The notes under the pieces are model-generated. The model ran no database searches. It was not told the DNA's origin and saw only the letters and a program-made list of their open reading frames with translations. A program made the translations under genes and the position numbers. Source: Prevotella sp. (GTDB lineage: Bacteria > Bacteroidota > Bacteroidia > Bacteroidales > Bacteroidaceae). Taken from it: 53,370 nucleotides of DNA. The stretch spans positions 1-53,370 of the forward strand of contig JAFSNR010000011.1 of assembly GCA_017443345.1 (NCBI GenBank), written 5' to 3'. This document shows, piece by piece, positions 27,710 through 36,412 of the stretch (position 1 is the first letter of the stretch; every line of letters begins with the position of its first letter).

Positions 27710-27746
27710 ATTTGTAGTTCTTGAAATAAAAATCCTTTCTGAGATT

Positions 27747-27778
27747 GCAAAGATAGACATTTTACGCGACATGCACAA
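27747..27778 (-). promoter_or_regulatory. galE promoter
   Basis: Minus strand TTG (27776-27778), 20-nt spacer, TATCTTTGC (27747-27755). This fixes the galE start downstream at 27709. Confidence 0.8.
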
Positions 27779-27811
27779 GAAAAAAGCGAAAAATATATAT
27801 AAAAAAGAGGA

Positions 27812-27838
27812 AAGGGGAAACCAGAACAGTTTCCCCTT
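27812..27838 (-). terminator. Terminator of the candidate small RNA
   Basis: A perfect 10-bp stem (27812-27821 with 27829-27838) with a 7-nt loop, followed on the minus strand by an interrupted U tract to about 27800. No protein gene ends close by on this strand, which supports a separate small transcript. Confidence 0.8.
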
Positions 27839-27844
27839 ACCCTT

Positions 27845-27946
27845 TTAGCGAGATTCATGATACTCATAGTCCGACTCGCTACTGAAAAAAGGCCTCTGCC
27901 TATTACAGACTATGAAAGTGCCGGTGGTAAGTTCAAATGACGACAT
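27845..27946 (-). CDS. Possible 33-residue peptide nested in the small RNA
   Basis: An ATG-started frame of 33 codons begins MSSFELTTGTF and ends YHESR, with TAA 7 nt before the terminator stem. The frame is open upstream of the ATG for about 20 more codons. There is no Shine-Dalgarno site and no signal peptide or membrane segment. The pseudoknot helices lie within it. It may be a real small protein, a leader peptide or chance in a structured RNA; the sequence alone cannot decide. Confidence 0.3.
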   Translation of the reverse strand: MSSFELTTGTFIVCNRQRPFFSSESDYEYHESR

Positions 27947-28064
27947 TTCGGACGCCCAGCAAATCCGGCTGCTTCGCTCCAGCCTCCCTATATAAGCTAT
28001 TTTCTGTTCTCTTCAATTACAACGCTATTCAGTTGTTAGAATTTTTGCAAAAGGGTTATCGAGT

Positions 28065-28073
28065 GCAAATATA
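28065..28073 (-). promoter_or_regulatory. -7 box of the candidate small RNA
   Basis: Minus strand TATATTTGC matches TAnnTTTGC exactly. It lies in the gap after tilS, with no protein gene starting within 350 nt downstream. Confidence 0.6.
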
Positions 28074-28096
28074 AGTAAAAAAATGATAAGTGGTAC

Positions 28097-28120
28097 ACTC
28101 TTTAACATTTATTAAAGAGT
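28097..28120 (-). terminator. Hairpin over the tilS stop codon
   Basis: A 9-bp perfect stem (28097-28105 with 28112-28120) includes the tilS TAA. The T run lies about 20 nt further, so it may be a weak terminator or an mRNA-end stabiliser. Confidence 0.5.
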
Positions 28121-29443
28121 CTTTGCAACCGTTATGCGTAAAATCGAGGATGTCGTATTTGTGACCCTATAGCGATGATCGATTCTGAGGCCTACAAGCC
28201 ACAAAATTTCACCATGGGCATCGGTCACAACCAATTGGCGTCGCTTCTCCAACAAGGAAAGCTTCTGATCTGTCAGGAAATCACTGATAAGTCGATGTCC
28301 CTTCATACCTAAAGGACAGAACTTATCACCTGTCTGTACCGGTCGGATGGTTAAAGGGAATTGAATGTCTGCTATATCAAGTGTAGCACAAAACACTGAG
28401 TTTGAAATAGATATGGCATTAGAAATATCGAATGAAAAGCGTATGTTATCTGTGTATCGATAATGTCCAGTCTCCGGAATTTTCATCGCTTTCATCGGTG
28501 TTTGGAGAGGTTCAAGAATGAGTTGGTTGCGATCAATCAATAGGGTATGTGAAGCGGTGGAAAACTCCCTACCCGACTCTCCGTTGAGATGGGCAAAAAT
28601 CTGTTCCGTCTGACAAGAATTGAACCCAAAGGGAGTCAGCCATTCATGGAGAAAAGCCTCGGGTGAAGGTAACTGTTGCAGGCTGGGAATAGCTACTTTC
28701 TGAGACTCAGAACCTTCTTCACGTTCTATCAGAGAATTGATCTGTAATGACAATGTATTGTTAAATATTTTCTCAGCCTGCTGCAGATAATGAGCGGTTT
28801 TATCGATATTTTCAGCTACATTGGGGTTGATTTCGCATAATAAAGGTAGTACGCGCAGGCGAATCTTATTACGCACCACATCATCAACGAGGTTGGTGGA
28901 GTCAACTACATAGTCCTGATGGATACGATGAAGATAATCTTCAATCTCCTGACGACTAAGGCAGAGCAACGGACGAACAATCTGGCCATTCTTGGGACGA
29001 ATACCAGTCAGACCATGTATGCCAGCCCCACGAATGAGGTTCATTAAAAGTGTCTCTACAGCATCATCACGATGGTGTGCTACACAAATAGTGGATGCTC
29101 CAATATCTTGACAAAGCTGATGGAAATAGCCATAACGGAGATCTCGGGCAGCCATTTCAATGCTTACTTGATGTAAAGTAGCGTATTCTTTTGTGTCAAA
29201 ATGAATTAAGTGAAGAGGAATATCATGTGCTTGACAGAGTGATTTAACAAAATCCTCATCGCGAAGGCTCTCCTCACCACGTAAATGAAAATTACAATGT
29301 GCAGCCTCTATACGATAGCCCAACTGCTTCAGCATGAGCAGTAAGGCCACACTATCGGCTCCACCACTCAGTGCCACAACGTGTAGGTCGTCATGAGACA
29401 GAAGCTGGTGCTTCGCGATGAAATCGGCTACTTTGTTATTCAC
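28112..29443 (-). CDS. tilS: tRNA(Ile)-lysidine synthase
   Basis: Converts C34 of the CAU-anticodon tRNA-Ile to lysidine, so that it reads AUA. The PP-loop motif is ALSGGADSVALLLML near the N-terminus (about 25-39), with HCNFHLRGEES and AHHRDDAVETLLMNLIRGAG following. The C-terminal domain reaches residue 443, a normal length. The start is GTG at 29441-29443 and is itself part of a 7-bp repeat array that fills the 17-nt spacer after the upstream gene. It is the third gene of an exonuclease-rlmI-tilS operon. Confidence 0.95.
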   Translation of the reverse strand: MNNKVADFIAKHQLLSHDDLHVVALSGGADSVALLLMLKQLGYRIEAAHCNFHLRGEESLRDEDFVKSLCQAHDIPLHLIHFDTKEYATLHQVSIEMAARDLRYGYFHQLCQDIGASTICVAHHRDDAVETLLMNLIRGAGIHGLTGIRPKNGQIVRPLLCLSRQEIEDYLHRIHQDYVVDSTNLVDDVVRNKIRLRVLPLLCEINPNVAENIDKTAHYLQQAEKIFNNTLSLQINSLIEREEGSESQKVAIPSLQQLPSPEAFLHEWLTPFGFNSCQTEQIFAHLNGESGREFSTASHTLLIDRNQLILEPLQTPMKAMKIPETGHYRYTDNIRFSFDISNAISISNSVFCATLDIADIQFPLTIRPVQTGDKFCPLGMKGHRLISDFLTDQKLSLLEKRRQLVVTDAHGEILWLVGLRIDHRYRVTNTTSSILRITVAKTL

Positions 29444-36021: not shown

Positions 36022-36094
36022 GCACCCGTAGCTCAGTTGGTAGAGCACCTGACTCTTAATCAGGGTGTCCAGGGTTCGAGCCCCTGCGGGTGTA
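36022..36094 (+). tRNA. tRNA-Lys (anticodon CTT), copy 1
   Basis: 73-nt cloverleaf: acceptor GCACCCG pairs with CGGGTGT (terminal G-U), anticodon CTT at 36055-36057, TTCGAGC T loop. No encoded CCA. Followed by its own terminator-like hairpin. Confidence 0.97.
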
Positions 36095-36096
36095 CA

Positions 36097-36125
36097 AAAG
36101 GAGGAAAGAGACCTCCTTTCTTTTT
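36097..36125 (+). terminator. Hairpin between the two tRNA-Lys genes
   Basis: Perfect 8-bp stem (36097-36104 with 36112-36119), 7-nt loop, then CTTTTT. It could end transcription after the first tRNA-Lys or separate the two during processing. Confidence 0.7.
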
Positions 36126-36133
36126 GAAATGAT

Positions 36134-36206
36134 GCACCCGTAGCTCAGTTGGTAGAGCACCTGACTCTTAATCAGGGTGTCCAGGGTTCGAGCCCCTGCG
36201 GGTGTA
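36134..36206 (+). tRNA. tRNA-Lys (anticodon CTT), copy 2
   Basis: Identical over all 73 nt to the copy at 36022-36094. The identity extends a few bases on both sides, indicating a recent tandem duplication. Anticodon at 36167-36169. Confidence 0.97.
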
Positions 36207-36234
36207 CGGATTTTAAAGGTTAATACGAAGGGTT

Positions 36235-36307
<73 letters not shown>

Positions 36308-36341
36308 CACATAAAAATCAGGATTTTTTTTGGTTGTTTAA

Positions 36342-36412
36342 GCGGAATTAGCACATCGGTAGTGCACGGGCTTCCCAAGCCTGGGAGGCGGGTTCGATTC
36401 CCGTATTCCGCT
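36342..36412 (+). tRNA. tRNA-Gly (anticodon CCC)
   Basis: 71-nt cloverleaf with acceptor GCGGAAT/ATTCCGC and anticodon CCC at 36374-36376. No encoded CCA. Last RNA of the cluster. Confidence 0.95.

Follow-up and report, generated by a model that had tools for sequence, protein, structure and literature searches.

A candidate lineage-restricted noncoding RNA gene with a near-invariant core and a predicted H-type pseudoknot downstream of tilS in Prevotella

Known RNAs of the Bacteroidales and the tilS-galE intergenic region

The intergenic small RNAs of Bacteroides have their own terminator and belong to a size class similar to that of the RNA gene proposed here. They resemble it as well in intergenic position and in a promoter of the sigma-ABfr type, as exemplified by B. 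thetaiotaomicron (PMC7366714), and differ from it in that the present RNA has a near-invariant structured core and a predicted pseudoknot. Bacteroidales-1 (RF01693) is likewise a Bacteroidales noncoding RNA candidate, tabulated in PMC2864571, although its covariance model, run up to E 10, matched none of the three sequences compared here: the window, which is the whole 53,370-nt stretch of Prevotella DNA that was analyzed, and the corresponding loci of two relatives, G353 and RUG383. The 6S-Flavo (RF01685) and 6S (RF00013) RNAs are alike in size class and in being free-standing, but neither model matched any of these three sequences up to E 10, the fold modeled for the present RNA is a different one, and its distribution is narrow. 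A literature search, whose scope ended short of supplementary lists such as the candidates of PMC8040213, brought no published description of this RNA to our notice.

The window is contig C26 of a draft genome (G000; 4.16 Mb in 204 contigs, 92% complete), and the putative RNA lies on its minus strand at 27801-28073. A sequence-only reading of this DNA had described a structured RNA unit here, for which it suggested 6S-Flavo, Bacteroidales-1, a new family or a dispersed repeat. An Infernal-type check against Rfam gave no real match to either of the named families or to any other. No family reached its gathering score at the RNA, the four matches in the window being tRNAs, and relaxed scans of the window, G353 and RUG383 with E up to 10 returned chance-level matches only. 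The sole family common to these scans was mir-641, a microRNA family whose model responded to the terminator hairpin in two copies. GibS (RF04182), the one Bacteroides small RNA that we recognized among the relaxed matches to the RNA, was on the opposite strand and scored 18.7 bits against a gathering score of 115, which is chance level. Nor is the element a dispersed repeat, since BLASTN of its own genome recovered a single full-length copy; the other nine matches in this 92% complete assembly are 15-43 nt long with E of 0.28 or worse. DNA signals, conservation and the silence of Rfam thus support the proposal of a structured RNA outside the known families.

The intergenic region is larger than had been supposed. 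The earlier figure of 333 nt was wrong because it assumed a galE start at TTG 27778; the start common to relatives is ATG 27709, a -7 box for galE lies between the two candidate starts at 27755-27747, and the distance from the end of tilS at 28112 gives a gap of 402 nt (27710-28111). The genes before the RNA encode an RNase D-like 3'-5' exonuclease domain, an RlmI-like methyltransferase and tilS, and the six neighbors scanned with family models are all housekeeping genes.

Extent, conservation and folding of the predicted RNA

The TAnnTTTG consensus is the main promoter type of the phylum (PMC7366714), and a -7 box of this type precedes the RNA (Table 1); by eye, no clear -33 TTTG was seen upstream of it. 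Matches to TAnnTTTGC (TANNTTTGC) are common throughout the window, with 21 occurrences against 5.0 expected in shuffles, and the box therefore probably marks many promoters there. For that reason the weight of the argument rests on conservation of the RNA's own -7 box and its flank: TATATTTGCACnCGATAACCC was found in 12 of 122 loci scanned, and all 12 are copies of the window, G353/L069 and RUG383 loci. As sequence signals, both the promoter box and the terminator are kept at all three loci. The terminator is identical at 32/36 positions to G353 and 36/36 to RUG383, and includes one compensatory G-C / A-U pair as well as one pair that is broken in G353. The 5' end of the RNA would lie near 28061-28059. 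Of the complete minus-strand transcription unit described in the sequence-only reading, the box TATATTTGC and the terminator hairpin are borne out at the DNA level. The body measures ~220 nt, and a predicted RNA length of about 250 nt is supported.

Table 1. Features of the predicted RNA and its immediate context (window coordinates; identities are those to G353 and RUG383, pair counts those over all three sequences).
Feature	Position	Strand	Remarks
tilS	28112..29443	minus	constant upstream neighbor of the RNA; same in G353 and RUG383
-7 box of the RNA, TATATTTGC	28073-28065	minus	Bacteroidota TAnnTTTG type
Conserved 5' leader, GATAACCCTTTTGCAAAAATTCTAACAAC	28032..28060	minus	26/28 identical to G353, 26/28 to RUG383, 1 gap
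Variable linker	27994..28031	minus	16/36 (2 gaps) and 14/37 (1 gap) identical, G353 / RUG383
Near-invariant 65-nt 5' core	27929..27993	minus	64/65 and 63/65 identical, G353 / RUG383
Core hairpin H1	27984-27980 with 27971-27967	minus	pairs kept 3/3, none varies
Helix H2	27961-27956 with 27924-27919	minus	5' strand in core, partner just past core; kept 3/3, none varies
Core hairpin H3	27947-27944 with 27939-27936	minus	kept 3/3, none varies
Pseudoknot stem 1 (predicted)	27914-27906 with 27873-27865	minus	9 bp; encloses hairpin H5; one U-G / U-A change
Hairpin H5	27904-27887	minus	one A-U / G-C compensatory change
Pseudoknot stem 2 (predicted)	27880-27875 with 27852-27847	minus	6 bp; invariant 3/3
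Intrinsic terminator	27801..27838	minus	10-bp stem 27838-27829 with 27821-27812, then T-rich tail
Separate -7 box of galE, TATCTTTGC	27755-27747	minus	context, outside the RNA; 3' of the RNA terminator

Judged from the aligned sequences, the core is very strongly constrained and the 3' part moderately so, and the constraint tracks the segments of the RNA rather than the region as a whole. The adjacent tilS gene provides the scale. At its fourfold-degenerate sites the window is 59% and 53% identical to G353 and RUG383 (165 and 166 sites), and over whole codons the identity to the relatives is 80%. Set against 53-59% at the fourfold sites, identity at 63-64 of 65 core positions indicates strong purifying selection on the core. 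The 3' part containing the pseudoknot (67/86 identical positions in the comparison with G353 and 66/85 with RUG383, with 6 gap positions each) is conserved about as well as whole tilS codons.

The H-type pseudoknot described in the sequence-only reading largely holds as a prediction. Both interleaved helices are present, with one unpaired base (27874) between them, but the tenth pair of the first helix (27915-27864) is a mismatch in both relatives, and this helix is conserved over 9 pairs. When the RNA was searched for its strongest pair of interleaved helices, exactly this pseudoknot was returned, and by a simple score 3 of 400 dinucleotide shuffles equaled or exceeded it. The homologues preserve the proposed pairs, as that reading had expected of them: counted over window, G353 and RUG383, every one of the 45 cells in the 9-bp and 6-bp helices is paired. 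The test is weak because just 1 of the 15 pseudoknot pairs varies (U-A or U-G). Over the whole three-sequence alignment of window, G353 and RUG383 (A3; nine helices including the pseudoknot, 58 pairs), 95.9% of cells are paired, compared with 30-53% when partners are slid by 1-3 columns, although such counts are biased upward because the structure was drawn from the same sequences. Pairs that change on both sides number 2 of 58, one in H5 within the body and one in the terminator, which 64 of 500 column shuffles matched; covariation support across the three sequences is minimal. A helix joining the ends of the RNA (28056-28049 with 27846-27839) is sound in the window sequence only. In nested folding the window RNA forms stem 2, whereas G353 and RUG383 form stem 1, a difference that is expected if both stems form together. 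The energy of the nested fold is not out of the ordinary, with z-scores of -0.97 and -0.57 for two window cuts and +0.18 for G353.

The two mutually exclusive pairings sharing 27967-27969, which had led to the suggestion of a switch, can both be drawn, but in the window RNA the alternative (27965-27969 with 27920-27924) competes poorly. There, the structure containing it is ~10 kcal/mol weaker (-6.7 vs -16.7), and its mean pairing probability is 0.01, as against 0.38 in G353 and 0.04 in RUG383. With the alternative weak in two of three sequences and a downstream gene that differs between lineages, a two-state switch is not supported by the modeled folds. A cis-regulatory riboswitch or attenuator would be expected to have the same gene or pathway downstream of it on the same strand in relatives, and this is not the arrangement found.

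Distribution and genomic context

Full-length copies of the RNA are rare. With BLASTN, 24 of 398 same-genus genomes had matches at E 0.05 or less; these are full-length in the window itself and in G353 (where identity is 80% across the 241-nt query and E is 4e-48) and limited to stretches of 20-36 nt in the remaining 22. Two of the short matches (L009, L010) are inside ORFs. Scored with R1, a covariance model of the RNA, four of the short-match loci gave nothing under default filters, and five loci reached at most 13.1 bits at full sensitivity. The highest of these matches (13.1 bits, E 0.02, L104), which was regarded as chance, covers the start of the lipoprotein ORF that also carries the 22-nt match described below. 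A genome collection (84,980 species by its own description, with records close to that of the window possibly missing) was scanned with a DNA pattern, which returned 10 loci and would miss diverged copies because it demanded 18 exact bases. R1 accepted two of the 10, both public records of uncultured Prevotella: L069 (193.7 bits) and L062, which is Prevotella RUG383 (176.3 bits). The other eight were rejected, three at 10.2-16.0 bits and five with no match up to E 5. Because L069 and G353 are identical over 1823/1823 nt they are counted once, and the full-length RNA is found in three Prevotella lineages, those of the window, G353 and RUG383.

Further searches added no copy. R1 with strict filters found only the window at E 0.1 or less in 299 same-genus genomes, a draw that evidently did not take in G353. 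Applied to 11 chosen genomes it returned G353 and one 19.3-bit match in another genome (G088), which was rejected as lying within a long ORF, and a scan of 60 relatives of G353 yielded G353 alone. Family-wide BLASTN of 399 genomes gave the RNA's own copy and a 22-nt match in G617, a genome of another genus, and nothing more; the genome draws overlap and their counts are not additive. BLASTN of 72,556 plasmid records produced no match, three exact patterns found nothing in viral contigs, and phage BLASTN gave stretches of 23-42 nt in 18 records (17 of them Lactococcus phages), which were taken as chance.

In all three lineages tilS directly precedes the RNA, while the downstream side differs. 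In the window, galE comes next, on the strand of the RNA. A 110-aa ORF converges on the RNA in G353, with a 260-aa ORF behind it, and we take these two to be AzlD and AzlC. In RUG383 the converging ORF has 124 aa and is presumably phosphatase-like, with what look like an AzlC-like and an HU-like ORF farther on. G353 and RUG383 share part of this downstream region and the window differs from both. Since the downstream gene converges on the RNA in G353 and RUG383, the RNA is not a leader of the next gene. In G353, galE is on another contig behind another gene, and in RUG383 it is absent from the 8 kb read. R1 detected the RNA in none of 28 other tilS loci, taken as the nearest to that of the window, and in seven of the 28 galE follows tilS directly across a gap of 32-102 nt. 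Viewed from the galE side, tilS is upstream in 5 of 29 other loci. The short tilS-galE junction elsewhere and the context in G353 and RUG383 together indicate that the RNA goes with tilS rather than with galE.

Proposed mode of action and competing readings

We consider it probable that the locus is a free-standing, lineage-restricted, trans-acting noncoding RNA gene whose core binds a protein or RNA partner. Transcription would start a few nucleotides past the -7 box at 28065-28073, cross the variable linker, the near-invariant 65-nt core (H1, H2 and H3) and the H-type pseudoknot, and stop at the RNA's own terminator to release an RNA of about 250 nt. The promoter box, the terminator and the non-conserved downstream gene argue that this RNA acts in trans. 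The loops and joints of the core are as fixed as its stems, which points to tertiary contact or protein binding and fits a surface for binding better than a seed of 7-15 nt. The compact fold and the conserved loops and joints, namely GAGCGAAG in H1, GGATT, the TCGT loop and the TTTGAACTT strand, could jointly form such a surface, which the pseudoknot would protect or present. As partner, a protein or a complex of proteins would be more likely than one short antisense target. Transcription, trans action and the type of partner are what we infer from these features. By sequence evidence, the RNA gene itself appears real, selected and of a known general kind, the lineage-restricted small RNA; what is unusual is how its constraint compares with its distribution.

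A conventional small RNA in which a conserved unpaired strand pairs with several mRNAs would also account for the invariant stretch AATGTCGTCATTTGAACTT, and the 22-nt match in G617 is a perfect antisense match to the start of a lipoprotein (L104 720-741, where the RNA core is antisense to the CSNDDISE lipobox codons). However, a 17-mer target with up to 3 mismatches has 11 non-self matches in G000 and 5 in G353, compared with 13 and 5 for the reversed control, and none of the 16 matches was seen at a lipobox, 2 of them lacking a covering ORF of 100 aa. Neither genome yielded a match resembling the 22-nt one. Because the matches in G000 and G353 do not exceed the reversed control, the idea of antisense pairing to the lipobox of lipoprotein mRNAs was dropped, and base pairing as the general mode of action seems to us unlikely. 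It is much less likely still that the RNA is a cis-acting leader or attenuator of galE or simply the 3' untranslated region of tilS. Its position between the two genes on their strand, with a terminator ahead of galE, is what such an element would show, as is its place after tilS in all three genomes; yet it has its own conserved -7 box, that of galE sits past the RNA terminator, the RNA stays with tilS where galE is on another contig (G353) or missing from 8 kb (RUG383), and the seven short tilS-galE junctions do without it. We assign a similarly low probability to a guide or accessory RNA left behind by a mobile or defense element (TnpB/IscB, Cas9, retron or DRT). Pseudoknots are common in such RNAs, and the patchy presence of this one, with none detected by the model in the 28 other close tilS loci, would fit; against this stand its housekeeping neighbors, its constant position after tilS in all three lineages, and the outcome of the plasmid, phage and viral searches.

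That the RNA is a strongly diverged 6S RNA of this lineage we regard as scarcely probable. Length and the possession of a promoter and terminator agree with 6S, and RF00013 and RF01685 find no 6S over cut-off elsewhere in G000 or G353. The silence of these models counts for little because they are weak for the Bacteroidales: among 14 control genomes, RF01685 exceeded its cut-off in none and RF00013 in 4. However, 6S RNA is expected nearly everywhere, whereas among 397 other same-genus genomes a full-length copy of the present RNA occurs in one. The 6S fold is one long interrupted hairpin with a central bubble, whereas the fold modeled here is an H1/H2/H3 domain followed by a pseudoknot, the helix that would close the ends is not preserved in the relatives, and as noted neither 6S model matches any of the three sequences. 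Most improbable of all is a small protein gene, either the 33-aa ORF at 27845-27946 on the minus strand or the opposite-strand 45-aa ORF at 27937-28074. On the RNA strand MSSFEL can be read in all three sequences, but a product is unlikely because indels break the frame right after these six shared residues, leaving 33, 60 and 11 codons, and no conserved open frame is found on this strand across the three. On the plus strand MTT-F/L-RTPSKSGCFAPASLY is shared and a 22-aa ORF occurs in both relatives (the L042 and L062 counterparts); the frame has 45 codons in the window against these 22, and the likeness follows from the near-identity of the core DNA.

Beyond the trans-acting RNA gene that we favor, a more speculative and rather improbable extension is that it represents a recently born class of structured RNA, restricted to a single small lineage of Prevotella and built from a hairpin domain plus an H-type pseudoknot. 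An RNA of this class would bind a protein machine of RNA metabolism and regulate it, perhaps in connection with tilS and the preceding exonuclease and methyltransferase genes. A structured RNA with a near-invariant core is usually ancient and widely distributed; a core held so tightly yet found here in only three lineages would be a case for studying the birth of a complex RNA gene. The host genus is abundant in the rumen and gut. The locus also offers a concrete, testable RNA gene for a group in which small RNAs have, to our knowledge, received little study.

Elsewhere in the window, the Rfam scan placed the four tRNA genes in a cluster at 36022-36412, and those at 36022 and 36134 have identical sequences in their printed alignments. 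At the end of tilS, an inverted repeat (ACTCTTTAA-TAAATG-TTAAAGAGT) at 28097-28120 on the minus strand overlaps the stop codon; it is possibly a terminator stem of tilS or an operator ahead of the RNA promoter. Its G353 version reads GTCTTTAA-TAAATG-TTAAAGAC, a compensatory change.
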